A program made the position numbers and the translations under genes. Source: Bacteroidales bacterium (GTDB lineage Bacteria; Bacteroidota; Bacteroidia; Bacteroidales; JAADJA01). Taken from it: a stretch of DNA of 33,885 bases. The stretch is from assembly GCA_016933115.1 (NCBI GenBank), contig JAFGBL010000170.1:1-33885 (forward strand), given 5' to 3'. Below the pieces are notes generated by a model that searched no databases, was not told where the DNA came from, and worked only from the letters and a program-made list of their open reading frames with translations. Positions 6,801 to 31,781 of this stretch are shown here, piece by piece. Position 1 is the first letter of the stretch. Each line of letters starts with the position of its first letter.

Positions 6801-7029
6801 TGATAAATTGTATTTTAATATCGTTGATGACGGTATCGGAAGGGAGGAAGCCGCTAAACAGAATACACCCGGTACAAAAAAGGGGTTATCCATAACCGAT
6901 AAGATATTTTCACTGTATAAGAAGTTATTCGATTACGATATTTCGCAGGAGATCGTCGACCTGAAGGATATTGATGGAAAAGCATTAGGAACAAAAATCC
7001 TTATTACGATCGATCTCGGAAAAAAATGA
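3805..7029 (+). CDS. Beta-propeller sensor histidine kinase (LytS/YehU type)
   Basis: 1074 aa. An N-terminal signal/anchor (FLVLIPLALCGQ) leads into a long periplasmic sensor of two-component-regulator propeller repeats, roughly residues 25-640, with recurring DxxGxIWxGT strands. A Y_Y_Y-type domain follows (about 720-815, FSFASLDYTQP and YMFRVRGTNSSGIWS). One membrane helix is at about 830-855. The cytoplasmic kinase has the phospho-acceptor region DPHFAFNAMN with His881, then HVENAIKHGL and DDGIGRE of the ATPase domain. The start is TTG at 3805, preceded by AAGAGG; this start gives a normal signal peptide. The response regulator follows 4 nt after the stop, so the two form an operon. Known relatives of this shape sense extracellular glycans or their breakdown products; the ligand here is unknown. 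Confidence 0.93.
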   Translation: MRFFTHKSILFLVLIPLALCGQHFTCYDKLDAADGLSQSTVNCILQDRDGLIWFGTQDGLNVYDGIQFYQYQNIPSDPNSLSNNYILSLCEDSLGNIWAGTMSGGLNCLDKKTGQFQVFLHDPEDNTGISNNNIWALAVDNCNNIFAGTSKGLNIYSIDAKKFIVLNHQKDNPFSIPSDFVVSVHIDAIGEIWVGTSNGLAQYINNNKTFKRISGSDETGKGIIVWSIRESYKGVILMATNNGLFTYDDETGIITQLPNNYSIGQYTFWSAMPLNDGLILSGTREGIRFYNVESGKFEKSCMGFDQDRFEVNSNVWCFLPDRSGFIWAGTDEGLLKISTEEKPFQTINAEENSHPKLSEKSVNSILEDQEGNLWVGTEGGGLNLLKRGDAYFTVYKSGDGTKNKIAGDYIWSLLEDSDNNIWIGTYGEGISVLNKETGIIKHFQHETLANDWLSNSRILAMLEDKNGDIWIGTRGGGLNRYLKDTGKFEVYMNNPEDSESIASNTVLSLAEDADGFIWVGTFEGGLCKMDLTKKTFQTWANLPNDPASLSNNNVWVIWFDSRNRMWLGTQGGLNLVENTHNRMMFSHINKNHGLPSNVIFGLAEDSRGNIWMSTFNGIAMLNDSILKQIDDLSGYSHDPFIPLFTNFDESFGLQGKEFNQGAHFQSANGTIYFGGAGGYNKFHPDSIRLQDFDPPVIISEFKIFNREVEVFIDRNSNEPSEEQIIKRNDRYYLPKKISYINKLTLTYRERVFSFSFASLDYTQPKKNNFAYIMQGFEDQWNHVGNRNMATYTNLSPGKYMFRVRGTNSSGIWSKNEASLEITILPPFWKTIWFIVAVVIFIILTTILVVRRIIINQKKKAVEEMDKMELQLKTIKNQIDPHFAFNAMNMIGSLVYKGDPDIVYDYFTRFAQLMRSTLKDSEKISRSIREELEFVENYLAIQKTRFKEKFEYSIKVSPEVDQEIQIPKMIVQTHVENAIKHGLMNKKTKGHLEISIEQSIDKLYFNIVDDGIGREEAAKQNTPGTKKGLSITDKIFSLYKKLFDYDISQEIVDLKDIDGKALGTKILITIDLGKK

Positions 7030-7033
7030 AACT

Positions 7034-7786
7034 ATGGAAATCAGGGTAGTGATCATCGATGACGAAGAGGAAGCAAGGGACGTGATGGATAGATTGCTTC
7101 ACAGGCTGGGTGGCATTAACATTGCCGGGAAGGCAGCCAATGTGGATGAGGGTCTGGACCTGATCCTTAGTGAACAACCCGATATCGTTTTTCTGGATAT
7201 TCAAATGCCAGGAAAGGACGGTTTTGAACTGGTGAAAAAACTCAGGGATTACAACCTGACCGCAACGATCGTTTTTACCACCGCCCACATCGAATATGCC
7301 GTTAACGCCATGAAGGTGGCAGCTTTCGACTATCTGCTCAAACCCGTTGTTTTTGAAGTATTGAAAGAAACCGTTCAACGTTTCAGGTGCCAGCGAAGCC
7401 AGCAATTAAATGCCAAAGTAGATGTGCTGCTGGATGCCTTATACAAACCAGAAAAAATTTGTTTCAATACCCGAACCGGGTACATTTATATTGCTCCGGA
7501 AGATATCATTTACTGTCAGGCGGATGTGAACTACACTGAGATCTATTTCGGCAAGGAAAGAAAAGAGGTAGTCACCGTTAACATCGGGAAGGTAAACGAA
7601 TTGCTCGATCTCCACAAGTTTTACCGCATCAGCCGGTCGCACCTGATCAATACCAAATACCTGGCAAAGGCCGACCGTCGAAGCAAATCATGTGAACTAT
7701 TAAAAAATGAGGAAAAATTCACGATCCCGGCACCATCAAAACAAATCAGGTTGATGGAGGCATATTTATCTTCCGGTAAAAATTGA
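7034..7786 (+). CDS. LytTR-family response regulator
   Basis: 250 aa. Residues 1-118 are a receiver domain with the acidic pair Asp9-Asp10, phospho-acceptor Asp55 (IVFLDIQMPG), the TT of VFTTAH and the conserved Lys-Pro in DYLLKP. Residues 145-245 are a LytTR DNA-binding domain (IIYCQADVNYTEIYF, then FYRISRSHLINTKYL). It is encoded directly after the propeller kinase and is its obvious partner. LytTR proteins bind paired direct repeats; I could not find a convincing pair upstream of the genes just downstream of it. Confidence 0.95.
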   Translation: MEIRVVIIDDEEEARDVMDRLLHRLGGINIAGKAANVDEGLDLILSEQPDIVFLDIQMPGKDGFELVKKLRDYNLTATIVFTTAHIEYAVNAMKVAAFDYLLKPVVFEVLKETVQRFRCQRSQQLNAKVDVLLDALYKPEKICFNTRTGYIYIAPEDIIYCQADVNYTEIYFGKERKEVVTVNIGKVNELLDLHKFYRISRSHLINTKYLAKADRRSKSCELLKNEEKFTIPAPSKQIRLMEAYLSSGKN

Positions 7787-16542: not shown

Positions 16543-18660
16543 ATGAACAAGAGGGGAAAATACTGTATCGGGTTTGCCATGCTGACAGCTATCCTGATTT
16601 CTTATCCTTCCTTTTCACTATGTTCACAATCAAAATCCGACAGTTTAAAAGCCTTATTAAACCAGGCCGATCACGATACAATAAGGATCAGGATGCTATT
16701 TGAAATGGGTAATTTATATATTGATGGGCCTTCAGATTCTTTGGTTTTTTATTATAAGGAGGCATTAAACCTGATCGATAAATTCTTTGCACAACCCGAG
16801 GATTTTATTGCCAAAAAAGGGTCAAAGACCATCGAACGATACAAAAGGTTAAATTTTCGTGCATTACTCGAAATCGGCATTGAAAAATTTTTCCAGGGGA
16901 AATACAATGAGTCATTGGAAAATTACTTTAAAGCCCTCAAAATCGCACAGGATATCAACGATATAGGCCTGGTTTCGGAGGTGAATGGTGCCATCGGAAT
17001 CGTTTATAAAAATCAGGGAGAATACGCACAAGCGCTCGAATTTTATGAGCAGGCTTTATCTGCAGCAATTGAACTCAATGACACATCCTGGATTGCAGCC
17101 TGTTATGCCAATGCCGGCAACGTGTACCGAAGGTTGACGAATTACAGTAAGGCACTGGACTATTTTCTAAAAGCCCTGGAAGTTTTTGAAAAAGAAGGAG
17201 AGTCCCGACGGATGGCCATCAGTTATATGAACATCGGTAATTTGTATGAGGATCAGAAGGATTACAATACGGCCCTTGAATATTACAGCAGGGCCCTTCA
17301 ATTGTCCTATCAAACAGATGATAAAAAAAGGATCGCGGAATGCCTGGCCAACATTGGGAATATTTATTCGGCACAAAAAGCCTTTAATACGGCAAGGGAT
17401 TTCTACCGGCAATCGCTTGAAATCAATATAGAGCTGGGATATGAGCATACGGTAGACGATTGCTATAAATATATCGGAAGTACTTACGAACTGGAAGGAT
17501 TGACAGATACTGCCCTGGTAAATTACCGGAAAGCATATGAAATAGCCCTGAAGGAAAATGACAAGCTGATTCTGGCCGAAGTTTTGGGAAGTATTGCCAA
17601 TATTTTCCTGATGAAAAAATCTTACAGGGAAGCGATGGAAAATGCAGATAAAAGTTTGCAAATCGGGCTTGAAACGGGCGATCCGCAGAACATCAAGAAC
17701 GCCTATTTGTACCTGTCAGAAGCCTGGCAGGGTTTGAACAATCCAATCAAAGCCCTAGAATACTTTAAATTATACTCAAACATTAAAGATACCATTTTCA
17801 GTTCTGATAAATACAAGGCCATCAAAGACCTTGAAATGAAATACGAAACCGAAAAAAAAGAACAAAAACTGGCCCTGCTTACCGAAAAAAATCAGGTTCA
17901 GGTACTCAAACTTAGCAGAAGGTACCGGCTGCTGTGGGGTATCGGAATTCTTGCAGTCCTCATCATGTTGATCATTTACCTGCTGTTCAGGCAAAAGGAG
18001 TTGAGGTCAAAACACATGGCCGTGGAACTGGAACAAAAACTGCTAAGGTCGCAAATGAACCCGCATTTCATTTTCAATTCACTCATCGCGATACAAAGTT
18101 TTATTTATAAAAAGGACCCGGTACAGGCCGGAGATTACCTGGCCAAATTCGCCGAACTGATCAGGATCACGCTTGAAAACTCAAGAAGTGAGTTCGTTTT
18201 ACTCGAGAGAGAAATTAAAATGCTTGAAATATACCTGGAGCTTCAATGCCTGCGGTTCGATAATAAATTCAACTATCAACTCGAAATAGATGAGAATATC
18301 GACGCTTCAACCATGCGTATACCGCCCATGCTGGCCCAGCCATTCATTGAAAATGCAATCGAACACGGCCTCAGGTATAAAGACACCAAAGGAAATATTA
18401 AAATCAATTATATGAAAAGTAACGGAATCCTTCGGTTGATCGTAGAAGATGATGGCATTGGAAGGGAAAAGGCAGCAGCCAATTCCAGAAATAAAAAACA
18501 TGCATCCATGGCCACTTCTATAACAATAGAAAGGCTGGAGGTGCTGAGTAAAAGATTTAAACAAAAACTAAAACTTGAACTGACCGATTTGAAAAATGAA
18601 GAGGGAATGCCTTGTGGAACACAAGTTAAATTTTCGATGCCCTATAAAATTTCGGTTTGA
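16543..18660 (+). CDS. TPR-containing sensor histidine kinase (LytS/YehU type)
   Basis: 705 aa. A signal/anchor segment at residues 10-28 leads into tetratricopeptide repeats at about 105-430, with repeated YxxALEYYxxAL and NIGNIY patterns. A coiled stretch rich in E and K (about 425-455) precedes one membrane helix (about 462-483, GILAVLIMLIIYLLF). The kinase region has NPHFIFNSL with phospho-acceptor His508, then PFIENAIEHGL and DDGIGRE. The TPR part is predicted outside the inner membrane, so the signal is probably a protein or peptide contact rather than a sugar bound to a propeller. The response regulator starts 31 bp downstream. The ATG at 16543 gives a clean MNKRGK signal start. Confidence 0.93.
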   Translation: MNKRGKYCIGFAMLTAILISYPSFSLCSQSKSDSLKALLNQADHDTIRIRMLFEMGNLYIDGPSDSLVFYYKEALNLIDKFFAQPEDFIAKKGSKTIERYKRLNFRALLEIGIEKFFQGKYNESLENYFKALKIAQDINDIGLVSEVNGAIGIVYKNQGEYAQALEFYEQALSAAIELNDTSWIAACYANAGNVYRRLTNYSKALDYFLKALEVFEKEGESRRMAISYMNIGNLYEDQKDYNTALEYYSRALQLSYQTDDKKRIAECLANIGNIYSAQKAFNTARDFYRQSLEINIELGYEHTVDDCYKYIGSTYELEGLTDTALVNYRKAYEIALKENDKLILAEVLGSIANIFLMKKSYREAMENADKSLQIGLETGDPQNIKNAYLYLSEAWQGLNNPIKALEYFKLYSNIKDTIFSSDKYKAIKDLEMKYETEKKEQKLALLTEKNQVQVLKLSRRYRLLWGIGILAVLIMLIIYLLFRQKELRSKHMAVELEQKLLRSQMNPHFIFNSLIAIQSFIYKKDPVQAGDYLAKFAELIRITLENSRSEFVLLEREIKMLEIYLELQCLRFDNKFNYQLEIDENIDASTMRIPPMLAQPFIENAIEHGLRYKDTKGNIKINYMKSNGILRLIVEDDGIGREKAAANSRNKKHASMATSITIERLEVLSKRFKQKLKLELTDLKNEEGMPCGTQVKFSMPYKISV

Positions 18661-18691: not shown

Positions 18692-19429
18692 ATGATTTCT
18701 GTTGTAATCATTGATGACGAACAAAAGGCCAGGGAAACCATTCAAAATATCCTAGGTCTCAGTGAATGTGAAATTCAGATCATTGGCGAGGCCGATTCGG
18801 TAGAGAGCGGTTACGAGCTTATTTCCAATAAACGACCCGACCTGGTATTGCTCGACATCAACCTCACCGACGGAACAGGATTTGATTTGATCAAAAGGTT
18901 CGACAGGATCACATATCATGTTATATTCATTACCGCTTATGAAGAATATGCGTTGAAAGCCTTTAAATTCAGCGCTATTGACTACATTTTGAAGCCCATA
19001 ACTGCAGCGGACCTGCTTCAGGCTGTTGAAAAAGCCTGTTCGACTATTCACAAGGAAGAAAATGACGTAAAGTTGTCCACCCTTCTTTCCAACCTGGAAA
19101 AGATAAAAAAAATTGTTTTGAAAACTGCGGAAAGTATCCACATCGTGCAGGTAAAAAACATCATCCGATGTGAAGCCGACGTGAATTATACCACCTTTTT
19201 CCTCGAAAACGGCGATAAACTCCTGGTTTCAAAAACCCTCAAGGATTTTGCAGAATTATTGGAACCGGCAGGATTTTTCAGGACACATCAATCTCACCTT
19301 GTTAATCTTGATCATATACTTCGGTACGATAAAACCGAAGGCGGACATTTGGTAATGGGCGATGAGTCAATTGTGCCTGTATCTTCCAGAAAAAAAGATG
19401 AGATGTTCAAGCTTTTCGAAAAAATGTAA
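18692..19429 (+). CDS. LytTR-family response regulator
   Basis: 245 aa from ATG 18692, the first codon that gives the normal receiver start ISVVIIDDE; an in-frame TTG two codons earlier is less likely. The receiver holds Asp8-Asp9, phospho-acceptor Asp55 (LVLLDINLTDG) and Lys-Pro in DYILKP. The LytTR domain covers about 140-245 (IIRCEADVNYTTFFL, FFRTHQSHLVNLDHI). It pairs with the TPR kinase. The direct repeats at 19448-19480 lie just after its stop and upstream of the 19539 gene, which makes that gene the first candidate target. Confidence 0.95.
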   Translation: MISVVIIDDEQKARETIQNILGLSECEIQIIGEADSVESGYELISNKRPDLVLLDINLTDGTGFDLIKRFDRITYHVIFITAYEEYALKAFKFSAIDYILKPITAADLLQAVEKACSTIHKEENDVKLSTLLSNLEKIKKIVLKTAESIHIVQVKNIIRCEADVNYTTFFLENGDKLLVSKTLKDFAELLEPAGFFRTHQSHLVNLDHILRYDKTEGGHLVMGDESIVPVSSRKKDEMFKLFEKM

Positions 19430-19447: not shown

Positions 19448-19480
19448 CGAATAATCATTCAACCCCAGCGAATAATAATT
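19448..19480 (+). promoter_or_regulatory. Candidate LytTR binding site, 21-bp-spaced direct repeats (site 1)
   Basis: CGAATAATCATT (19448-19459) and CGAATAATAATT (19469-19480) start exactly 21 bp apart, two helical turns, and differ at one base. The second copy begins 38 bp before a likely -7 box. LytTR regulators such as AgrA are known to bind two 9-bp direct repeats about 21 bp apart. No TTTG-like -33 box is present, as expected for an activator-dependent promoter. Confidence 0.6.
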
Positions 19481-19506
19481 TTCCACTTATACAGCAGTTT
19501 CCACGC

Positions 19507-19514
19507 TATATTTT
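19507..19514 (+). promoter_or_regulatory. -7-like box of the 19539 gene
   Basis: TATATTTT differs from TAnnTTTG only at the last base and lies 24 bp before the start codon. It is positioned for activation from the direct repeats upstream. Confidence 0.4.
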
Positions 19515-19538
19515 TACCGAAAACAAAACTTCATCAAT

Positions 19539-21554
19539 ATGAAAACTTCGGCAATCAAAATCCTATCTGCAATCTCGATTATTTGTATTGTTAATATCAT
19601 GCAAGCTTCAACCATCACTTCAACCTTAAATGGCGGCCCCTGGAATGAAGCCACCACATGGATTGAGGGAGTTGTTCCCGGATCTAATGATACGGCCATT
19701 ATTCAGGGCCTCGTGATCATCGGGAGTGTTGTTGTTTATGAAATTTACCACAGTTACGGAGGCTGGGTCATTGTTGAGCAATCCGGAAGTTTGGTCCCAC
19801 ATGAATATGGCGGAGGGTTGGGAACCTTTAATTTATTTGTTGCCCACGACATTACAAATAATGGAATCATATACAACGGGGAAGAATATCTGCATCTCTT
19901 AATTGAAGGGAATATAATGAATAACGGTATATGGCAACCACACGAAACATTTCTTACAGGAACGGCTAACCAAAATATCAGCCTGGGTGAGGATGCAGTT
20001 TTCGGAGGTTATTGGACCATAAATAATCCAGTTTCAATCACGGCTTTGTCAGATATCAGGTATAATGGGGGTTATTCGCATGGTACAAACTACTACATCG
20101 GCGATTTCAATATGAATGGAGTGACATTCCATTTGGGTACATTTTCGATCAATATAGCAGGAACCGTAATTTTTAATGGTACCATTGAAGGTGATTTTGA
20201 GATCCTCGGCACATTTAATGTCGATAAGGATTTGAGTGATACCTTGGTATTTCATGGAACAGTGCATGTTACCGACACCTTGCAGAACACCCTTTATGGC
20301 CAGGGATATGGAATCATGAAGCTGGTAGTCGAAGGGGACATTGTAAATAATGGTGTTGTCCGTGATCACCCTTTGGATGACGATCTCAGCATTCTGATAA
20401 CAGGGAAAATCGTCAACAACGGGAAATGGTCCTGCAATCATGTGAGTTTCACAGGATCAGAAAATCAATATATAGAACAAACTACCGGAAAATATTTCGA
20501 AAGCAATTTTTACGACCTGGATGCCGCGAGTGAAATAATTGCAAATTCAAATATCACTGTAACTCAAGAGATACAAATGAACGGTTCTGTTTTGGATATG
20601 CAGGAACATACACTGAATCTCACATCCTGGATAAAAAATGGGGTTCTGAAAAATGCCAACCTGCATGGAGGATATCTTCTTTCGGTGAATGCAGCCGACT
20701 TTCTCAACCTCTTTGGAATGGTAACAGTTGACGATTATAATGTTTTTCAGTGTCCGGTAATTGTTTACGATACTCTAAGGTGCAATACCTATGGAGGAGG
20801 ATCCTATTATTACGAGTTACAGATTGATGGTTCTTTAACCAATAACGGCTGCATCCAAAGCTATGGATCAGGTATGCTGCGTATGCATATTACCGGAGAT
20901 ATATTAAATAACGGCTCCTGGGCAAATTACACCACTTATCTGGAAGGAGATATGGACCAGTTTATCGGGCAGTCTGAAAACAAAGTTTTCGAAGGTAGCT
21001 TTGAAATTCAAAAAACCGCGGGGAACGTTATTGCCAATTCCGATCTTAGGTTCCTGGGAAATATCAACCTGAACGGGTCGACTTTAAAAATGGGAGGACG
21101 TACCATCTTTATGGATAATTTTCTATACAACGGCACATTGGAACAGGCCTATTTACATGGTGGTTTACTTCAATCCATAACTGCAACCGGCAAATTAGAT
21201 ATTAAAGGCACGGTAAAATTGGACGATTTTAATATTTTTAATTGTCCGGTTACGGTATTTGACACGTTACAAAGCAACACTTTTGGCGGAGGATCGAAAT
21301 ACTACGACGTCACCATTAACAATTCTGTAACTAACTATGGGGTAATTCAGAGCTGGGGATCTGGAATTCTACGATTATATATCACCGGCGACTTAAGCAA
21401 CTCAGGTCAATGGGTCAATTACCTGACCTACTTAAATGGAACTGAAGACCAACATATTTATCTTTTTGAAGATATTACCATCGATGGAAATGTACAGTTT
21501 GATGCCATAAAAACACTGCTCCATTCCAATGGTACCATGAAGGTTTATTGCTAG
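19539..21554 (+). pseudogene. Secreted solenoid repeat protein, N-terminal part of a frameshifted gene
   Basis: 671 codons from ATG 19539 to a premature stop at 21552-21554. Signal peptide: residues 1-22 (ILSAISIICIVNIMQAS). The mature start GGPWNEATTWIEGVVPGSNDT matches the start of the 9365 protein. A beta-solenoid with repeating 'NNGxW' turns follows. Two long repeats of about 160 residues (each with LHGG and GGGS-YY) occupy roughly 360-660. Just before the stop the frame goes wrong: FDAI is followed by KTLLHS here, whereas one extra base gives NTAPFQWYHEG, which aligns with DDPPYQWKWNG of the 9365 protein. The rest of the protein continues in the frame of the next entry. Restored, it would be 967 residues. 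It may be a true pseudogene, a sequencing error or, less likely, a recoded gene. Confidence 0.8.
21509..21513 (+). other. Frameshift site in a run of five A
   Basis: The upstream frame reads GCC ATA AAA ACA; adding one A to the run gives GCC ATA AAA AAC ACT and joins the downstream frame. The downstream frame has a stop at 21500-21502, so the shift must lie between about 21503 and 21551, and the A-run is the natural place. Confidence 0.75.
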
Positions 21555-22441
21555 ACTCACCCGATTTTAATGGAGAAACAGCACAGGTCCTATCCTGGAA
21601 TGTTCCTGTTCAACCGGCCTGGTACGGAACTTTCTTTTGCGAAACCGGCGAGGGCAATTCAAGAAATATAATTGTTGGCCGTGGGATGTACTCACCAATA
21701 AATCTAACTGCAGTAGTAAACTGTACCGATGTAGAACTGTCATGGCAAATGCCTAACGGCTCACCCAATAGCTGGAACATTTACAGGAATAATGAGCTAC
21801 TTGAGAATGTCAATTCCATGTCTTACACCGATGAAATGTTAAATCCGGGTGAGGATTACAGCTACTACATTACAGCCGTTTTTGGTTTGGAGGAGTCTGA
21901 GCCGACTGCTACAGTTACAATTTACCTGGAGATACCAGCCAATACCATCCCCGGAAATTTCACTGCCGATCCCAACGAAACCGTAGTTATTTGCACCTGG
22001 GACGAGCCCGCATGTTGCCTTACTCCTGATGGCTACAACATCTATCGCGACGGTGAAAAACTCAATTCCATAATGATCCTCGAAACCACCTATACCGATT
22101 CGCCAGGTTATGGAGATTTCTCTTATCAAGTTAATGCAGTGTATTATTTTGGTGAGTCCGGCCATTCTGAAACCTCAACGGTACATATTTCAGGAATTGA
22201 AGAAAACACATTGAAATATATCAGCCTGTATCCTAATCCAGCGAAGGAAAAAATAAATATTACCTCCGATATCGAACTTTACAACCTATATATTTTCAAC
22301 AGTGAAGGGCGGCAGATTATGAACCAAAATTATGTAACTGAAAACTATTCGATAGATGTTTCTGCTCTAAACTCAGGGTTATACCTATTGATTCTGAATA
22401 CCGAAAAGGGTAAATTAAAATCCAGGTTTATTGTAAAATAA
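21548..22441 (+). pseudogene. Fibronectin-like and type A CTD part of the frameshifted secreted protein
   Basis: 297 codons counted from a TTG at 21548, but the frame is open from 21503 and homology starts at about 21512, so this is the downstream half of the 19539 gene rather than a separate gene. FNGETAQVLSWNVPV is the end of the solenoid body. Two fibronectin type III-like domains follow (about 21690-21930 and 21940-22190; each has a SWNIYRN or GYNIYRD core). The last 75 residues or so are a canonical T9SS type A CTD: YISLYPNPAKEKINI, then GLYLLILNTEKGK and the terminal IVK. If translated in frame, it would direct export across the outer membrane by T9SS and attachment to the surface. Confidence 0.8.
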
Positions 22442-22455
22442 AAAAAGGCTTGTCA

Positions 22456-22478
22456 TCTGGGGAGATTCTTTCCCCGGA
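22456..22478 (+). other. Hairpin after the stop of the 19539 gene
   Basis: TCTGGGGA (22456-22463) pairs with TCCCCGGA (22471-22478), 8 bp including one G-T pair, with a 7-nt loop. No T-run follows, so it is a weak terminator candidate or an mRNA 3'-end stabiliser. Confidence 0.4.
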
Positions 22479-22487
22479 GGCACCTTG

Positions 22488-22519
22488 CAAATAATAATCC
22501 ATTCCCGGCAAATAATAAT
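22488..22519 (+). promoter_or_regulatory. Candidate LytTR binding site, 21-bp-spaced direct repeats (site 2)
   Basis: CAAATAATAAT occurs at 22488-22498 and 22509-22519, exactly 21 bp apart, each preceded by G. It shares C(G/A)AATAAT(A/C)AT with site 1. The second copy starts 40 bp before a likely -7 box of the LytTR-only gene, almost the same geometry as at site 1. Confidence 0.6.
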
Positions 22520-22529
22520 TTGCCGGGAA
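22502..22529. promoter_or_regulatory. 12-bp perfect inverted repeat overlapping site 2
   Basis: TTCCCGGCAAAT (22502-22513) and ATTTGCCGGGAA (22518-22529) flank the loop AATA. It overlaps the downstream direct repeat, so it could be an operator or an RNA hairpin. No T-run follows it. Confidence 0.5.
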
Positions 22530-22548
22530 ATTTCCCAATCACCTCTCA

Positions 22549-22556
22549 TAAATTTA
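22549..22556 (+). promoter_or_regulatory. -7-like box of the LytTR-only gene
   Basis: TAAATTTA differs from TAnnTTTG at the last base and ends 31 bp before ATG 22588. No -33 box is seen at the right distance. Confidence 0.35.
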
Positions 22557-22587: not shown

Positions 22588-23103
22588 ATGGAACGCATCA
22601 TAATCATCGATGACCATTTATGTAAAGAAGAACTGGCCGAATTCCTCGAAGCCAACAAAAAACACATCAAACTCGATTCTTCATTCGAACAGTTAAAATC
22701 CTCTACAAAAATATTTTTCGAAGAGTTATTGGAGATCAAAAACGGAGATGAAAAAATTATTTTTAACTCAGATCAAAATATCAATTTTGTCAGAACCAAA
22801 GAAATCGTTAGCGTAAATGCATTCGGCCGTTATTGCAAAATCATCCTAAAAAACGGCAGCATCCTTGAAACCAACCAGGACCTCGACTCAATAGAAAAAA
22901 AACTGCCCAGGGATTTTTTTATGCGCATTCATGCATTGCACCTGATCAACCTCGACTACCTGGCAAGTTGCAAATTGAACATTCCCCCTTCAATAATCAT
23001 GAACAATGGAGAGATTTTACCTCTGGATGAAAACAAAAAAGCAGAAGTCATTAAATACCTGGAAAATTTAACAAAAAATTCAAATAATTCAATGATTTAT
23101 TAA
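22588..23103 (+). CDS. Receiver-less LytTR DNA-binding protein
   Basis: 171 aa. Residues 1-10 (ERIIIIDDH) look like the first strand and acidic pair of a receiver domain. The rest of the receiver, including the phospho-acceptor Asp and the Lys-Pro, is absent, replaced by a short helical segment (11-55). Residues 65-165 form a complete LytTR domain (EIVSVNAFGRYCKIIL, FFMRIHALHLINLDYL). It therefore cannot be phosphorylated like the other two regulators and may act constitutively, through protein level, or as a competitor at the same sites. The direct repeats in its promoter suggest control by itself or by the 18692 regulator. The giant secreted protein gene follows after 33 bp. Confidence 0.88.
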   Translation: MERIIIIDDHLCKEELAEFLEANKKHIKLDSSFEQLKSSTKIFFEELLEIKNGDEKIIFNSDQNINFVRTKEIVSVNAFGRYCKIILKNGSILETNQDLDSIEKKLPRDFFMRIHALHLINLDYLASCKLNIPPSIIMNNGEILPLDENKKAEVIKYLENLTKNSNNSMIY

Positions 23104-23136: not shown

Positions 23137-26100
23137 ATGAAAGACATCTTACAAGTAAGAGTAAACAGAAGAGTTAAAAACATTTTGTTTACGGTATTTA
23201 CTATTGTGTTTTGGATCAACTGTTTTGATGCAAATGCCCAGGTATCCTTTACACAAACGCTAAACGCCGATTTTTACAAAGGCGCTTACAACGATTTAAT
23301 CGTATATGGCGACAATGTTTACCTACCTTACCAGGCTACCGATGTGGGAACCTGGTTAACAACAACTGTATTACCCCAAACGTTGATGGGACAAAAAGCT
23401 GCCACCTGGAACAACCGATACGTTTACGTGGTTGGCGGTTATAACGACTTAACTTATTCTACTGCTGTATACCGGGCCACGCTCAACACATCGGGGATAA
23501 GCAGTTGGACTACACTGAATCCCTTGCCCGTCGGACTACGTGACCATGCCGTGGTGATCGGCACCAACACCGTTTATGTGTTGGGTGGTCGAGATGATTC
23601 TGACATTTATGATGAAATTTACTATGCCACCATCAACACAGACGGCTCTATCGGGGCATGGCAGGCATCTTCTGTTTCGCTTCCGGTTGCATTGTGGGGG
23701 CATACTGCCGTTTATTGCAACGGTTATGTTTATGTGGCTGGAGGTGCTAATACACTTTCCCCCACAGCGGCAAGAAATAACGTTTATTACGCAAAAGTAC
23801 TCGCCGACAATTCACTTTCTGCATTTACAGCAACTACTAATCTGCCGGCAACCAGAAACGGGCATTCTATGGTGAATCATGCCGGGAAGGTTTACGTATT
23901 GGGAGGTTTTGTCAATACAACCGGCGTGAAACAAAACACGGTTTACTCTGCTACATCGAATGTTTCAGGAAGCCTTTCATCCTGGTCGACCCTGACGGCC
24001 CTTCCGATAGCAGTGAGCAACCATTCATCTGTCATTATTAATGGATTAATCACCTTACTGGGTGGCGAAAGCGGTGGCACATTGAGCAATAGTGTCTATT
24101 ACGCCGACGTTAATGCGGCTCCGCTGGTTTGGAACCTGGCCTCCAATGTAATGTACGATCGAACTAAAGACGGTGCTGCATTTACCCGAGACGGCTGGAT
24201 AGGATTTTGCGGTGGAGAAAACCTTTCAGGAACGCCCATCTGGAATACAAGGTATGCCAATCTTACATTATCTTCCAACTATGAGAAGAATGGGCTTTTT
24301 ATTTCCAATCCATTTTATGAGTTGGGAGCTGAACGGGAAATCACGGAACTTACCTTTATAACAGGTAATCCGGCCGTTTCCAATTCCCAAATAGCCTACC
24401 GGACGGCCGGTGATGACCTGATCTGGGGTAACTGGACAACGCCCACTTCCACCAGCCCGATCTCCGTTGGCTTCACAGATCACTACCTGCAATATAAGGT
24501 AATTTTTACCGGAGACGGACTGGTTACTCCAACTTTCTCAGAGATGAACCTTTGGACACCCGGCACCGAACTATCAGGCAACCTGAATGCTTTAACCAGC
24601 ATAACACTGGCCAACAGTCCTTATTGGGTTACCGGCGATGTGTCGTTTACTTCAGGGACGCATACTTTCGAAGCCGGAGTGGTTTGGAATTTCCTTCCTG
24701 AAACAGGCCTGACGGTCGGACAGGCAAATGTTGTCTGCAACGGCACCTCAGGAAATCCTGTTCAGTTTATCGGTTATACCAATGACGACGGATTATGGGA
24801 TGGGTTCTATTTTGATCCAAACAGCGATAACGGGGTATCATCGCAGTTTAATTATGTGGTTATTGCCAATGGCGGATTTGGAAGTAATAATGCCAACCTT
24901 TACTGCAACTCATCCAATGAGCCGTTCCTCAATCATTGCACTATCCGAAATGCCGATGGAAATGGGATTCGTTTGAATAATGCCCAGATCAATGTTGAAT
25001 TTTCAACAATTGAAGATAACAGCGAAAACGGTGTTTATCTCGAAAATTCCAATCCGACTTTTGTAAGTTGTGATATAAATAATAATGCAGCAGCCGGGGT
25101 CCATTTTACTTCCAATACCTCAGAACCTACTTATAGTAACACCATCATTCAAAACAATCTGTATGGCCTTCACTATCCTTCACCCAATTATACGATTTAT
25201 CCTCCCAACGGTGATCCTACTTTAACCAATAATACTTATAACGGAATTGCCATTGATGGTGGAGACGTAACCAGCAGTAACAAAGTTTGGAATTCCATAA
25301 TTTATGACTATATATTATTGGGTACTGTGAGAATTGTCCAATATTCATCTTATGTACGTCTTACCATCGAACCGGGAAATACCATAAAGGCGTTAGAAGG
25401 AGTTCAGATACAGATTGGAATGGGTAGCAACGGCGGTGAATTATATGCAATTGGAACAGCTGACAGCCTGATTACTTTTACATCTCATGATGGCCTTTCA
25501 GGTGGATGGGATGGAATTTGGTTTACACAATACGCAAGTGGCTGGGGCGGCGTTTCGGTGATGGATTATTGCGTAGTTGAAAAAGGCAATGATTATAATA
25601 TGTACTCTCTGTCCACGGTCCAGCCTACCATGAATCACTCCATCATAAGGGATGCACTGGTCGACGGATTGAGGAATGCATCATCAACGCATATCATTCA
25701 AAACACGCAGTTTCTAAATAATGGAAGATATCCCTATTACTTGCTTGATCCGGGAGCAAATCCCACCCATTCGGGAAATACATATACCGGCAACGGCATT
25801 AACAGGATCGCTGTTGAAGGTGGCGAGTATGGTAGTGACCGGTCATTAACCTTTGATAATATCCCATATCTCGTCCTGAATGATATAATTATAGTGCTAT
25901 ATAGTAATCATAGCCGCTTAACCGTCGATCCGGGCGTCATTGTTGAATTTGCTGCCGGAACTCAATTAAGATTAGGTAAAAGCTCTAATGGTGGTGATCT
26001 TTGGGCCGAAGGAACATCAGGCAATCCGATTACTTTCAGGCCATATAATGGTGTTGCCGGAGGATGGGAAGGTATTTATTTTACACAATATAATGATAAT

Positions 26101-28293
26101 TGGGGCGGAACCTCCTCTATGAAATATTGCATTGTTGAAAAGGGTAATCAATATAATATTTATTGCGAAGGCTCAGCTCAACCCACTTTGGAAAACTGTA
26201 CCATCAGGCTTTCAGCAACTGACGGATTGAGGGAATATAATTCAAATCCACCCATATCAAGCTGTTCATTCGAAAATAACGGGGCTTATCCGATCAACTA
26301 TACCGACTGGACCTGTAATTCACTGCTCACAGGGAACAGCTATTCCGGAAACAATCCAAATTACATTGCGCTATCAGGGGGTGAATATAATGCTGACAGA
26401 ACTGTATACAATGATGGTATCCCCTATAGGGTTCTTGGAAATATTGTCATGGTATTGTATTCCAGTCATTCAAGATTAACTGTTGAACCTGGAGTTACCC
26501 TTGCATTTAATCCTGGTATTAAGTTGCAATTGGGATATTCCAGTAATGGTGGTGACCTTTGGGCTGAAGGGACAAGCACTGAAAGAATTGTCTTCAAACC
26601 CTATAATGATGCAATCGGTGGCTGGGATGGAATTTATTTTACGAATTACAATGATAACTGGGGTGGAACTTCTTCCATGAAGTATTGTAATGTTGAGAAA
26701 GCTGCAAATTATAATATCCTTGTTGAAAGTTCGGGACAACCATTTATAGAGAATTGCATTATTACAGAATCTGCGGGTAATGGATTATTTTTGAATAATT
26801 CAACACTTACGATCCGAAATTGCACATTTGCCGATAACGGATCTTATGGTATCCAACTGGAAGGTTCAAGTGCACCGGTCATCGGGAACGATGCGCTTTA
26901 CACTTGTAACCTCTATGGGAACACTGGCTATGAAATTTATAACAATACTACCAACAACATCAATGCACGCTACAATTATTGGGGTACCGGTGATTCAACT
27001 ATGATCGCTTCGCGTATTTATGATAAATATGACAATACTGCAAAAGGGATCGTCTATTTCAACGACTTTGCCCAAATTCCCTCCATCCATGAACCCACCA
27101 TGACACTTGGAGGCGATGTTTGGTATGCCAATCCAGCCATGACACCTTTTGATGGAGCCACCCTCGAAATATTCGATTTCGGTTCGTCTTCTGTGGCTTC
27201 GACTACTACCAATGGGTTGGGTCATTATAATTTCGGAACCGTGACCTCAGGAAATTATACCATGGAGATCACACCGACAGAATCATTTCCGACCGGGCAG
27301 GTCAACAGTACCGATGCGCTGGCAATTCTTCAGCATTTTGTACAAATCACACCTTTGCAAAACATTTACCTGGCAGCCGCCGATGTGAACGCCAGTGCCA
27401 CTGTCAATGGAACAGATGCTCTGTTTGTACAAAAACGCTGGTCGGGAATGATCACTTCCTTTCCTGCAGGCGACTGGCTGTACAATACTACCAACCTGAC
27501 CATCATCGGAAACCAGGTTACCAACGACTTTGAAATGCTGGCTTTTGGTGATGTAAATGCATCGTTTACTCCTGCCAAGGATTGGAACGGTTCGGTAACA
27601 CTTTTACATGAAGGTACACAAATCATTCAATCTTTTATGCCTTTTGAATTGGTCGTTTCAGCTAAGGAACCGATTGAAACCGGAGCCATTTCCCTGGGGA
27701 TTTTCTATCCTGAAGAATACATGGAAATTACCGGAGCTGAATTACTAAATACAAATGGAGGTGCAATATTTACTGCCGAAAACGGGCTGTGCCGCATCGC
27801 CTGGGCCGACCTGAATGCAACCGCTTATGTTGCCGGCGATCAATTGCTGGTACTGAATTGCCAGGCCAAGGATCTGAGCGGAATGCAGGAACCTATTTTG
27901 GTTGGAGTTTATGAAAGCAGTGAGTTTGCAGATGCTTCAGCTCAGGCCATTGAAAATGTGACCCTCACCGCTCCCGAACTGACTACCCTTTCCGTTGGTA
28001 TGGATCAGAAAGTTATGGAAGGATTGTGGTTAAGCACCAATTATCCCAATCCGTTCAATAAAGCTACGAAGATAAGTTATGCAGTTCCGGCAAATGGAAA
28101 AGTCAAATTGACCGTGGTTGACCTGTTGGGGAATATCATAAGCGAATTGGTTAACGAAAATCAATCGCAAGGTGAATATTCAGTGGAATTCAGGGCTGAA
28201 GGCCTCGAACCCGGTATTTACATCTACAAACTTGAATTCAAAAACGCTGAAAACAATGTTCAACTGGTGAATAAAATGAGTGTAACACGTTAA
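23137..28293 (+). CDS. Giant secreted Kelch / beta-helix protein with dockerin-like, cohesin-like and type A CTD domains
   Basis: 1718 aa. A signal peptide with a long basic start ends near DANAQ (residue 35). Residues 60-420 are Kelch-like repeats (YVVGGYND, VYVLGGRDD, VYVLGGFVN) forming a propeller. Residues 480-1310 are a right-handed beta-helix with three 186-residue internal repeats. Residues 1325-1385 look like a carboxypeptidase-regulatory/SdrD-type domain. Residues 1387-1480 carry dockerin-like segments (GQVNSTDALAILQHF and DVNASATVNGTDALF). Residues 1502-1620 are cohesin-like (GAISLGIFYPEEYMEI). Residues 1629-1718 are a T9SS type A CTD (STNYPNPFNKATKISY to NKMSVTR). It should be exported by T9SS and attached to the surface. 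Polysaccharide binding or cleavage is possible for the helix, but I see no lyase motif. The next gene starts 11 bp on. Confidence 0.92.
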   Translation: MKDILQVRVNRRVKNILFTVFTIVFWINCFDANAQVSFTQTLNADFYKGAYNDLIVYGDNVYLPYQATDVGTWLTTTVLPQTLMGQKAATWNNRYVYVVGGYNDLTYSTAVYRATLNTSGISSWTTLNPLPVGLRDHAVVIGTNTVYVLGGRDDSDIYDEIYYATINTDGSIGAWQASSVSLPVALWGHTAVYCNGYVYVAGGANTLSPTAARNNVYYAKVLADNSLSAFTATTNLPATRNGHSMVNHAGKVYVLGGFVNTTGVKQNTVYSATSNVSGSLSSWSTLTALPIAVSNHSSVIINGLITLLGGESGGTLSNSVYYADVNAAPLVWNLASNVMYDRTKDGAAFTRDGWIGFCGGENLSGTPIWNTRYANLTLSSNYEKNGLFISNPFYELGAEREITELTFITGNPAVSNSQIAYRTAGDDLIWGNWTTPTSTSPISVGFTDHYLQYKVIFTGDGLVTPTFSEMNLWTPGTELSGNLNALTSITLANSPYWVTGDVSFTSGTHTFEAGVVWNFLPETGLTVGQANVVCNGTSGNPVQFIGYTNDDGLWDGFYFDPNSDNGVSSQFNYVVIANGGFGSNNANLYCNSSNEPFLNHCTIRNADGNGIRLNNAQINVEFSTIEDNSENGVYLENSNPTFVSCDINNNAAAGVHFTSNTSEPTYSNTIIQNNLYGLHYPSPNYTIYPPNGDPTLTNNTYNGIAIDGGDVTSSNKVWNSIIYDYILLGTVRIVQYSSYVRLTIEPGNTIKALEGVQIQIGMGSNGGELYAIGTADSLITFTSHDGLSGGWDGIWFTQYASGWGGVSVMDYCVVEKGNDYNMYSLSTVQPTMNHSIIRDALVDGLRNASSTHIIQNTQFLNNGRYPYYLLDPGANPTHSGNTYTGNGINRIAVEGGEYGSDRSLTFDNIPYLVLNDIIIVLYSNHSRLTVDPGVIVEFAAGTQLRLGKSSNGGDLWAEGTSGNPITFRPYNGVAGGWEGIYFTQYNDNWGGTSSMKYCIVEKGNQYNIYCEGSAQPTLENCTIRLSATDGLREYNSNPPISSCSFENNGAYPINYTDWTCNSLLTGNSYSGNNPNYIALSGGEYNADRTVYNDGIPYRVLGNIVMVLYSSHSRLTVEPGVTLAFNPGIKLQLGYSSNGGDLWAEGTSTERIVFKPYNDAIGGWDGIYFTNYNDNWGGTSSMKYCNVEKAANYNILVESSGQPFIENCIITESAGNGLFLNNSTLTIRNCTFADNGSYGIQLEGSSAPVIGNDALYTCNLYGNTGYEIYNNTTNNINARYNYWGTGDSTMIASRIYDKYDNTAKGIVYFNDFAQIPSIHEPTMTLGGDVWYANPAMTPFDGATLEIFDFGSSSVASTTTNGLGHYNFGTVTSGNYTMEITPTESFPTGQVNSTDALAILQHFVQITPLQNIYLAAADVNASATVNGTDALFVQKRWSGMITSFPAGDWLYNTTNLTIIGNQVTNDFEMLAFGDVNASFTPAKDWNGSVTLLHEGTQIIQSFMPFELVVSAKEPIETGAISLGIFYPEEYMEITGAELLNTNGGAIFTAENGLCRIAWADLNATAYVAGDQLLVLNCQAKDLSGMQEPILVGVYESSEFADASAQAIENVTLTAPELTTLSVGMDQKVMEGLWLSTNYPNPFNKATKISYAVPANGKVKLTVVDLLGNIISELVNENQSQGEYSVEFRAEGLEPGIYIYKLEFKNAENNVQLVNKMSVTR
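25354..26800 (+). repeat. 558-bp repeat, two full copies and a third partial
   Basis: The segment encoding SNGG(D/E)L recurs at 25432-, 25990- and 26548-, that is, 558 bp (186 codons) apart both times. Approximate copies: 25354-25911, 25912-26469 and 26470 to about 26800. Copies 2 and 3 are closest (DLWAEGTS, NDNWGGTSSMKYC in both). The exact period shows in-frame expansion of the beta-helix. Confidence 0.8.
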
Positions 28294-28304
28294 AAAAAGG
28301 TATT

Positions 28305-31300
28305 ATGAAAACGAAAATTCCAACATTTTTCATAGCGCTTTTCATAATTGCCTGGCCTGTGTTGCTGCGAAGTCAGATCAATACCACAGCCGTGACAGTC
28401 TCCGACTGCCCGGGTGATATTGTGATTCCGATCAATGTGACAAACTGTAATAACGTTGGAGCCATCTCACTGGTGCTGCAGTACAATACATCAGTGATGA
28501 CTTTCCTGAATTTTGAAAATACAAATCCACAGCTTTCATCGGGAACACTCATTGTGAACCCATCGGGTAGTAGTTTACATATAGTTTGGTATTCAACTAC
28601 GGCTGCCAATGTAGGAAACGGAAAGCTGATGGACCTGCGTTTTTCGGGAATAACAGGCTCAAGTACTATGACGTGGGACACCCAAACACCAGGCAATTGT
28701 GAATACAGTGATATAGATGGGAATATCCTCCCCTCTTCTTATACCAATGGTACCGCAACGATTTACCAGGTACCTGAGGTTACAAGCCAACCGCAGGATC
28801 AGGCAGTGCTTGAATATTCAAATGCAGGTTTTCTAGTGGGAGCGATAGCAACCGGGATTGAATACCAGTGGTTTGCCAGCTCCAATGGTGGCATCGATTG
28901 GGTTGAACTATTCAACAGCAGTTTATATTCAGGGGTCAAAACGGCAAACCTGACGGTTTACAATGTTCAGCTCATTTATGATGGGTTTTTATATCGTTGC
29001 GAAATCAGCGGTACCTGCGAGCCGGTTGCCGTTTCAGATCCTGCCGAACTGATTGTGATTGAGCCGTTGATCACTTCTTTTAATGTAGATGAAGTTTGCC
29101 CGGGAACCATTTCCATTCCCATACTTACATCAAATTTCAATAATGTAGCGGCATTCTCGCTGGTGTTCAGTTACAACGAATCTGTGTTGAGTTTTTCAGG
29201 TTTTGAGGAATTGAATGCCTTGATCCCACCGGGCAATTTTGTTTGCAATGCATCGGGTGGAAAAGTGTATATGACCTGGTCATCGACCACTCCGGTTACT
29301 TTTTCCCTTCCCGATACTTCTTTGGTCGAAATCCTGTTTACTGGAATTACAGGAAGCAGCAGTCTGACCTGGGATACAGAAACGCTGGGTAGTTGTGAAT
29401 ATACGTATCTGAACAGTAACAAGATTGTCTCGGTTTTTGTCAACAATTCCTTCACCATTTACCAGACACCCCAGATCACTGTTCAGCCTGTGGATAAGCT
29501 GATCCCGGAAAATACCGCCACCAGCTTCAATGTATCGGCAATCGCCTCGGGAATCAATTACCAATGGCAGATCAGTACCAATGAAGGCGGTGACTGGGAT
29601 GATCTGAGCAATGGAGGAATTTACAGCGGAGTAACTTCAAGCCAGCTGAATATTAGCAACGCATCGTTGGGGATGAACGGATACTGGTATCGCTGCGTTG
29701 TAGGCGGCTACTGCACTCCGGATGCGGTTTCGGATCCGGGTGTTCTGTCCGTTTTGCCTAAAATCACTGCCATCGCTCCGACAGTTTCCGACTGTCCCGG
29801 GCCATTTGTTATTCCTATCGACATTACCCATTTTATCGATGTGGCTTCATTTTCATTGGCGCTCAATTATAATAACGCTGTTCTGACTTACAATGGATTC
29901 CAATCGCTGCATAGTAACCTGGCAGGCGGTAATTTCACAGCCAATGCTTCAGGCGGAAAGGTGTACATGACCTGGTCGTCTACCACACCTGTGACAATTG
30001 GAGATGATCAACTGGTTGAATTGCTTTTCACAGGAGCTATCGGGACATCAACCCTCACCTGGGACACACAAACACCGGGTTACTGCGAATTTGCCACCCT
30101 GGATGGTTTGATCATCTTTTCGAACTATACAAACGGCAATGTTACAGTTTACCAGCCGCCTGCCATTACGAGCCATCCCACAAATAAAACCGCTCCGGCA
30201 GGAACAGGTACATCTTTTTCAGTTTCTGCAACCGGAACCGGGTTGGATTACCAGTGGCAGGTAAGTACTAATAACGGACTAAACTGGACAAATTTGTTAA
30301 ACGGGGGTTCCTATTCAGGGGTCACCTCAACAACCCTGCAGATCAATCCTGTTTTATGGTCGATGGATCAAAACCTATACCGGTGCAGTGTTTCAGGAAC
30401 ATGCCCTCCGCAGGTTTATTCCAGCAATGCATTGCTGGATGTGATCCCTGAGGTGATCTATACTGTTGCCGGCCCCTTGAATAATTCATGTACCGGCAAT
30501 ATTACTGTACCTATCGGGGTTACGAATTGTTCAAATGTGAGCGCCATTTCACTTACACTTAACTATGATCCGGCCAAACTGACCTATGAAGGCTATGAAT
30601 CGGTAAATTCCGCATTATCCGGTGGAATGCAGATTATCTGCAATACCGGAACACAGATCAAATTCAGTTGGGTATCGGTGAGTCCTGCAAATATTGGTTC
30701 AGGAACGTTGGTCAAATATAAATTCAAAACCACAGCCGGAATTTCTACCGTATTGGACTGGGATGACCAAACACCGGGAAACTGCGAATACAGTGATCCG
30801 GACGGATATATCTATGTTACTTCGTTTACCAATGGAAATATTTCCACGGCTGCGAATGCGTTGGTTGTAGATGCCGGGGATGATAAATCCATTGCACCCG
30901 GAGGTTCTGTTCAACTGGATGGCTCTGCCACAGGAGGTGTTTCACCCTATGATATCCAATGGACTCCGGTCACGTGGCTATCCAATCCGGAAATATTAAC
31001 ACCTTTGGCCAATCCACCAGCCTCCACCAACTACCTGCTCACTGTAACGGACGATCTGGGATGCTCGGGATCAGACCAAATGACGGTAGAAGTAATTACT
31101 GCCGGGATTGACCTCAACTTGAAAGTTTTCCTGGAAGGGCCTTTTGAAACAAATGACATGCGGACCGACCTGAACATGCAGGATAAAATACCCTCATCAC
31201 AGCCATACAGTGCTCCACCCTGGAATTATTATGGTTCGGAAACCGTAACCTCAATCCCCGACCCTGAAATCGTCGATTGGATATTGGTTGAGTTGCGGGA

Positions 31301-31781
31301 AACATCAGGAAGTGCCTCTACTGCTACTTCAGCCACTATGGTTGGCAGACAGGCAGGATTTGTTTTCAGTGATGGGACAATATTATCGGAAGACGGTTCA
31401 AGCATGATGCATTTCGATATCTCGGTTACACAAAATCTTTATGCAGTTATCTGGCACCGGAATCATTTATCAATTATGTCATCCGGGCCATTGACACATA
31501 TTGGGCCAGTTTATTCATGGGATTTCACAACCGGTTCAGGACAGGCGCATGGAACCGCTGCCCAGAAACATCTGGGAGGAGGTTATTATGGAATGTACAC
31601 CGGCGATATCAATGCTGATGGTGAAGTTGAATCGACCGACATTTCTGTGACGTGGAAGAATCAGGCAGGAAAATCGGGCTATTACTCCGGGGATATCGAC
31701 ATGAATATTCAAGTCAATAACCAGGATAAAAACGGTCTTTGGTTTCCAAACCGGACGATACAAACACAGGTGCCGGATTAA
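28305..31781 (+). CDS. Secreted protein with four cohesin-like domains, Ig-like domains and shared C-terminal module
   Basis: 1158 aa with a signal peptide (FFIALFIIAWPVLLRSQ). The body is a repeat of about 230 residues: a cohesin-like domain (DCPGDIVIPINVTN, then VGAISLVLQYNTSVM, closing with LTWDTQTPGNCEY) and an Ig-like domain (YQWQVSTNNG, then YRCSVSG). There are four cohesin-like and three Ig-like domains. A PKD-like domain follows at about 855-932 (DAGDDKSIAPGGSVQLDGS). Residues 936-1158 are the shared module, ending TQVPD. Cohesins in clostridial scaffoldins bind dockerins; whether these do so is not known. It starts 11 bp after the 23137 gene with no promoter between, so the two are probably co-transcribed and may function together as a surface scaffold. 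Confidence 0.92.
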   Translation: MKTKIPTFFIALFIIAWPVLLRSQINTTAVTVSDCPGDIVIPINVTNCNNVGAISLVLQYNTSVMTFLNFENTNPQLSSGTLIVNPSGSSLHIVWYSTTAANVGNGKLMDLRFSGITGSSTMTWDTQTPGNCEYSDIDGNILPSSYTNGTATIYQVPEVTSQPQDQAVLEYSNAGFLVGAIATGIEYQWFASSNGGIDWVELFNSSLYSGVKTANLTVYNVQLIYDGFLYRCEISGTCEPVAVSDPAELIVIEPLITSFNVDEVCPGTISIPILTSNFNNVAAFSLVFSYNESVLSFSGFEELNALIPPGNFVCNASGGKVYMTWSSTTPVTFSLPDTSLVEILFTGITGSSSLTWDTETLGSCEYTYLNSNKIVSVFVNNSFTIYQTPQITVQPVDKLIPENTATSFNVSAIASGINYQWQISTNEGGDWDDLSNGGIYSGVTSSQLNISNASLGMNGYWYRCVVGGYCTPDAVSDPGVLSVLPKITAIAPTVSDCPGPFVIPIDITHFIDVASFSLALNYNNAVLTYNGFQSLHSNLAGGNFTANASGGKVYMTWSSTTPVTIGDDQLVELLFTGAIGTSTLTWDTQTPGYCEFATLDGLIIFSNYTNGNVTVYQPPAITSHPTNKTAPAGTGTSFSVSATGTGLDYQWQVSTNNGLNWTNLLNGGSYSGVTSTTLQINPVLWSMDQNLYRCSVSGTCPPQVYSSNALLDVIPEVIYTVAGPLNNSCTGNITVPIGVTNCSNVSAISLTLNYDPAKLTYEGYESVNSALSGGMQIICNTGTQIKFSWVSVSPANIGSGTLVKYKFKTTAGISTVLDWDDQTPGNCEYSDPDGYIYVTSFTNGNISTAANALVVDAGDDKSIAPGGSVQLDGSATGGVSPYDIQWTPVTWLSNPEILTPLANPPASTNYLLTVTDDLGCSGSDQMTVEVITAGIDLNLKVFLEGPFETNDMRTDLNMQDKIPSSQPYSAPPWNYYGSETVTSIPDPEIVDWILVELRETSGSASTATSATMVGRQAGFVFSDGTILSEDGSSMMHFDISVTQNLYAVIWHRNHLSIMSSGPLTHIGPVYSWDFTTGSGQAHGTAAQKHLGGGYYGMYTGDINADGEVESTDISVTWKNQAGKSGYYSGDIDMNIQVNNQDKNGLWFPNRTIQTQVPD
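28383..30850 (+). repeat. Four tandem cohesin-like units
   Basis: Units begin near 28383, 29073, 29763 and 30459, so the period is about 690-700 bp. Units 2 and 3 share the segments GNF-NASGGKVYMTWSSTTPVT. The fourth lacks a following Ig-like domain and ends at the PKD-like domain. Confidence 0.8.
31110..31781 (+). repeat. Shared C-terminal module, copy 5
   Basis: About 223 residues from DLNLKVFLEGPF to TQVPD. It has a good first loop (DINADGEVESTD) and a degenerate second loop (DIDMNIQVNNQD). It is on the same polypeptide as the cohesin-like domains, which matters for any docking model. Confidence 0.87.

Follow-up and report, generated by a model that had tools for sequence, protein, structure and literature searches.

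Two pairs of direct repeats of the form CRAATAATMAT, found in a 33,885-nt stretch of DNA from a Bacteroidales bacterium (hereafter the window), are each interpreted as an operator at which a LytTR response regulator would bind, immediately before a primary-sigma promoter of the Bacteroidota type with a -7 box and no -33 element. We assign this reading a probability of roughly 0.8. The features on which it is based are collected in Table 1, and genes and proteins are referred to by their first position in the window.

Table 1. Coordinates in the window of the repeat pairs, the predicted promoters and the surrounding genes.
Feature	Position	Strand	Basis and remarks
Histidine kinase, N-terminal TPR repeats and LytS-type His_kinase (PF06580)	16543..18660	+	Pfam; presumed sensor partner of 18692
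Response regulator, receiver and LytTR DNA-binding domain	18692..19429	+	Pfam; proposed binder of both sites
Site 1, CGAATAATCAT (19448-19458) and CGAATAATAAT (19469-19479)	19448..19479	+	Period 21; 54.0 bits with the site profile
-7 box of the site 1 promoter, TATTTTTA	19509..19516	+	29 nt after repeat 2; an overlapping TATATTTT starts at 19507
Secreted protein gene with T9SS sorting tail, two ORFs (19539-21554 and 21548-22441)	19539..22441	+	Proposed target of site 1
Site 2, CAAATAATAAT at 22488-22498 and at 22509-22519	22488..22519	+	Period 21; 58.9 bits with the site profile
-7 box of the site 2 promoter, TAAATTTA	22549..22556	+	29 nt after repeat 2
Receiver-less LytTR protein, 171 aa, receiver-like start MERIIIIDD	22588..23103	+	Pfam, AlphaFold, alignment; proposed target of site 2
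Extracellular protein, 1718 aa: kelch, beta-helix, dockerin-like, T9SS tail	23137..28293	+	Pfam; presumed operon with 22588
Cohesin-domain protein, 1158 aa	28305..31781	+	Pfam; presumed operon with 22588

All four 11-mers that the first-pass annotation had listed, in two pairs with a 21-bp period, are in place, and the offset read directly from the window sequence is exactly 21 bp in both pairs. The spacer is 10 nt when the repeat is read as an 11-mer and 12 nt when it is read as the 9-mer AATAATMAT, with a period of 21 in all sites, and the arrangement corresponds to that of a two-repeat LytTR operator (repeats of 9-11 nt, spacer of 11-13 nt, period of about 21-22). Single CRAATAATMAT 11-mers are ordinary, with about 26 expected per 4.47-Mb genome at the regional base composition, and matches with one mismatch are no more frequent in the window than in shuffled sequences. 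For exact pairs at 21 bp about 8e-5 are expected in 4.47 Mb at the same base composition. A scan of the whole genome (4.47 Mb, 88% complete), which the first-pass annotation had proposed as a check, returned exact pairs at these two sites only, 3 kb apart, before the 19539 gene and the 22588 gene. When the genome was searched with a site profile of 76 positions, the position scoring next after the two sites reached 16.8 bits; since the profile was built partly from sites 1 and 2, this gap carries more weight than the scores themselves. Weaker profile matches in the genus, below about 26 bits, were regarded as chance, and the strongest of them that were inspected had no proper pair or no -7 promoter and lay mostly in coding sequence.

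The pair was detected with up to two mismatches in 15 of the 17 genomes of the genus, and true sites were retained after inspection in 14 of the 17, mostly one to three per genome, while a reversed control pattern returned almost none. Sites were absent from G002, G004 and G008, which are draft genomes, so that their absence is weak evidence. A scan of 393 genomes of the order added true sites in G125, G129, G190 and G282, and one true site was also found at locus L074, which extends the site to a few other families. In a gap-free alignment of the sites conservation covers the 11-mers and the spacer, which reads roughly YCANYCCNG, and does not reach into the flanks. Some sites consist of three units at 21 bp (G003, G013, G016 and G129:C440), and a degenerate third unit is present in G011. 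Pattern matches in G004 and G006:C708 were not counted, as they belong to another conserved AT-rich sequence that does not have the spacer.

The promoter was examined in 24 non-redundant sites that had been selected by the repeats and the spacer alone, the -7 box not being used. The distance from repeat 2 to the motif TAnnTT is 29 nt in 22 of these sites and 28 nt in the remaining two, and no other offset has the motif in more than one site. The last position of the box is mostly A or G, and the box agrees with the TAnnTTTG of the Bacteroidota primary-sigma promoter. In the 24 aligned sites neither a conserved column nor a TTTG peak that could represent a -33 element was found upstream of the -7 box. 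The earlier reading of the window had described a -7-like box without a -33 partner before both genes; the boxes, at 19509 and 22549, are indeed each 40 bp from the start of the second repeat, and the lack of a -33 partner extends to the relatives. A promoter without a -33 element is as expected of an activator-dependent promoter. In all 24 sites the predicted -7 box places the repeats just upstream of a target promoter, the position known for LytTR operators. The -7 box of Flavobacterium psychrophilum spans -12 to -5 (PMC9723704), and by this numbering the repeats would be situated at about -73 to -63 and -52 to -42.

The genes behind the sites were compared across the relatives. In most genomes a pair precedes a receiver-less LytTR gene, with about 65-70 nt between the end of the repeats and the start codon; these genes encode proteins of about 165 aa that start with MxxIIIID, and large secreted-protein genes follow them. 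In G005, G007, G012, G014 and G015 the receiver-less gene is followed, as in the window, by two genes whose products measure about 1720 and 1150 aa. Other sites precede secreted-protein genes, several with a T9SS tail. In 13 other genomes of the genus the pair stands before an orphan LytTR gene, before genes for T9SS or other secreted proteins, or before both. At least 150 T9SS tails are encoded in the genome of the window; because they are so common a single neighbour of this kind says little, and it is the recurrence that counts. Among the 14 genomes of the genus with an orthologue of 18692, 8 have a site no more than about 175 bp downstream of that gene, as do G125, G190 and L074; the genes that these sites precede differ. 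The histidine kinase gene adjoins the response regulator gene in all inspected relatives that hold it. The small regulon proposed by the first-pass annotation, in which a LytTR regulator governs a surface-protein gene and the orphan regulator, thus gains support both from the occurrence of the pair only before these two genes and from the relatives.

To identify the probable binder, DNA-contacting residues were compared between the two LytTR proteins of the locus. Orthologues of 18692 (69-78% identity) are present in 14 of the 17 genomes of the genus, the next paralogues reaching at most 55%. We take H169 and R233 of AgrA to be DNA contacts in the AgrA-DNA structure. AgrA positions were mapped onto 18692 by a profile match to the PDB, and the positions of H169, R198, H200, N201 and R233 are occupied by Y, R, H, Q and R, respectively, in 17 of 17 orthologues of 18692, and that of S202 by S in 16 of 17. 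The DNA contacts of AgrA include R198, N201 and S202 (PMC4227749). In the receiver-less homologues (n=14) R198 and H200 are mostly kept, but the N201 position holds seven different residues, that of S202 also seven and that of R233 six, Asp or Glu being frequent among them. A nearly invariant operator should need a reader with invariant contacts, which fits 18692, and the contact residues therefore point to 18692, not to the orphan 22588, as the likely binder. The contact residues examined in 18692 are also present in LytTR regulators with other operators, and hence they speak for its capacity to bind DNA and not for its reading of these particular letters.

Under this preferred reading the TPR histidine kinase 16543 would presumably phosphorylate 18692, and two LytTR domains of 18692 would occupy the two repeats, two helical turns apart on the same face of the DNA, from where the bound regulator would help RNA polymerase at the promoter with its -7 box 29 nt on. 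Site 1 would turn on the gene for the T9SS-secreted protein, and site 2 an operon in which the receiver-less LytTR gene is followed by genes for two extracellular proteins of very large size. Binding, phosphorylation and activation over repression are what we infer from sequence, the last of these because of the position of the sites and the missing -33 element.

The receiver-less protein was described separately. Pfam gives 22588 a LytTR domain and no receiver match, which agrees with how the gene had first been annotated. In its AlphaFold model (mean pLDDT 88) the LytTR domain is predicted with confidence, at about 92-98 over most of its length, and is preceded by two helices of lower confidence; the only clear matches in a fold search with this model were LytTR domains (3d6w, ComE and AgrA), with 3d6w and AgrA the nearest. 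A PDB search with 22588 alone gave a weak LytTR match only, the profile and fold searches performing better. In a profile comparison of the receiver-less family with 18692 the LytTR part alone was aligned. The first residues of 22588 resemble the first strand of a receiver (a short match, MxxIIIIDD), a strand that is not formed in the model, and the N-terminal stump is likely of receiver origin. Between the window and G005 the receiver-less protein has 38% identity, the regulator 73% and the operon partners 53-63% (63% for 23137 and 53% for 28305, each with the gene at the same position); judged by these identities, the receiver-less protein evolves faster than its neighbours.

The role of 22588 leaves room for other readings. 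One, which we regard as possible but doubtful, is that both LytTR proteins use the sites, with 18692 activating and 22588 later joining it as a heterodimer or competing with it. No gene is found behind the sites more often than the receiver-less one, and the combination of a regulator, 21-bp repeats and a receiver-less LytTR gene recurs with other operator letters in L079 and L080, where the receiver-less protein of L079 retains regulator-like contact residues; in the focal genus, however, these residues are lost. Tentatively, and with no greater confidence, the receiver-less protein may instead be a feedback partner and not a DNA reader. Made under control of the response regulator, and having kept the LytTR fold and the stump while losing key DNA contacts, it would pair with or titrate the response regulator and so limit a pulse of T9SS surface proteins.

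It is unlikely that 22588 itself is the binder, switching on both its own operon and the surface-protein gene next to it through a positive loop like that of the LRS (LytTR Regulatory Systems). By presence, the receiver-less LytTR gene and the response regulator go with the sites about equally well: the receiver-less gene is found in 13 of the 14 genomes with sites, G011 (94% complete) has a site and this gene without a close orthologue of 18692, and G008 has an orthologue of 18692 and no site, although absences in such draft genomes carry little weight. The LytTR fold is also intact in the predicted model, and in LRS operons, too, the first gene encodes a receiver-less LytTR protein and is preceded by direct repeats of like topology (PMC6193735). 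Against this, the N201, S202 and R233 positions vary across the 14 homologues while the operator is nearly invariant, the next genes encode secreted proteins instead of a membrane inhibitor, and the sites behind 18692 orthologues precede unrelated genes. A function of the repeats at the RNA level, such as a hairpin that terminates or attenuates transcription of the upstream gene, is very improbable: repeat 2 of site 2 does lie inside a perfect inverted repeat, but no consensus structure was predicted over the 24 sites and the repeats stand upstream of a conserved -7 box at a fixed distance. Chance AT-rich matches, for which only the abundance of single 11-mers could speak, are excluded for practical purposes by the expected number of exact pairs, the conservation of the pair in 14 genomes and the fixed -7 offset.

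The period of 21 was also surveyed beyond the focal clade. The 80 survey loci, selected for their similarity to 18692, do not count as independent in phylogenetic terms; 10-mers repeated with at most one mismatch were recorded within 300 nt behind the regulator gene. Among 76 LytTR response-regulator loci outside the clade, period 21 occurred in 14, as compared with a mean of 1.4 at the other periods from 13 to 33 and with 2 in control coding sequence (Poisson 3e-10, ignoring the kinship of some loci). The letters of the repeats vary (CACACTTTCAA in Carboxylicivirga L089, TAATACACTT in L079 and CAAATTTTAATC in L080), and in L079 and L080 a receiver-less LytTR gene is again next. In 20 loci with this period outside the focal set TAnnTTT occurs 10 times at 28-34 nt after repeat 2 and 0-2 times in other 7-nt bins. 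Among 40 paralogous regulators of the genus period 21 was found within 400 nt in 7, other periods having a mean of about 1 with period 15 reaching 5; repeats resembling ACCGGATATA occur in one paralogue clade and CCGTAAACTTA in the genome of the window. On these comparisons the operator letters change between regulators, and the spacing and the distance to the promoter stay. Other LytTR response regulators with repeats of their own just downstream, of 21-bp period and different letters and often with a -7 box about 30 nt on, were observed at L076, L079, L080, L089, L103, L114, L294 and L304.

Published LytTR sites consist of two repeats of 9-11 nt with spacers of 11-13 nt and are located just upstream of the promoter (PMC4847170, PMC6193735); they have no common consensus (PMC4847170). 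The sites described here resemble operators of the AgrA, YpdB, VirR and ComE type: both have a pair of direct repeats, 9-11 nt long and separated by about two helical turns, in front of a promoter, and in both the regulator is a receiver-LytTR protein whose gene adjoins that of a LytS-type kinase (PMC4847170, PMC4227749). They differ from them in their letters, in the Bacteroidota -7 promoter without a -33 element, in the sometimes three units and in their targets, which are genes for T9SS and other secreted proteins and a receiver-less LytTR gene. In the LRS-like operons of Bacteroides thetaiotaomicron and B. ovatus the repeats and the spacer are each 11 bp long, and a further 11 bp separates them from TGTA-19 bp-TATCTTTG downstream (PMC6193735). 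Site 2 and 22588 share with the LRS the receiver-less LytTR gene behind direct repeats; in contrast to the LRS the period is 21 and not 22, a complete LytTR two-component system is linked, and several DNA-contact residues have been lost from the protein, which carries a receiver-like stump. The transmembrane-inhibitor gene of the LRS was not found in the window or in the inspected relatives, in which the next genes encode very large secreted proteins, and since this gene is missing the locus is not a full LRS. By their topology, which is that of published LytTR and LRS operators, the sites belong to a known kind.

In the open-access literature we found neither an operator of a LytTR response regulator in Bacteroidota beyond the LRS-like Bacteroides operons nor a LytTR regulon tied to T9SS cargo; a candidate for the former and a link of the latter kind can both be read here from sequence. 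The 21-bp rule (repeats just behind the LytTR regulator gene, followed by a -7 box after 28-34 nt) would allow operators to be predicted for some of the LytTR response regulators, which are numerous in such genomes, and so targets to be assigned among the at least 150 T9SS-tailed proteins.

Several further observations concern the locus and the repeats. The dockerin-bearing T9SS protein and the cohesin-domain protein are encoded side by side (window 23137-31781), and the conservation of this pair throughout the genus suggests that the two form a cohesin-dockerin complex at the cell surface, exported via T9SS. The 19539-22441 gene is broken by one frameshift near 21.5 kb (window 21500-21560), and its homologue in G003 (L222:3640-6078, 812 aa) is a single open frame; the frameshift could be an assembly error or a real lesion. 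A second sensor pair in the window, at 3805-7786, combines a histidine kinase of the Reg_prop/Y_Y_Y type with the LytTR response regulator 7034, downstream of which no CRAATAATMAT pair was found. One pattern match, in G167, was not counted among the sites, because it belongs to a many-copy 21-bp tandem array (L202:1-160, with many head-to-tail units resembling GCAAAGCTACAAATRATAATT) that looks unrelated to the operator. The perfect inverted repeat that encloses repeat 2 of site 2, CCCGGCAAATAATAATTTGCCGGG, lies within 22505-22530 of the window, and partial dyads (GGCRAAT...ATTYRCC) surround repeat 2 in relatives as well; these dyads may provide extra contacts of the regulator.
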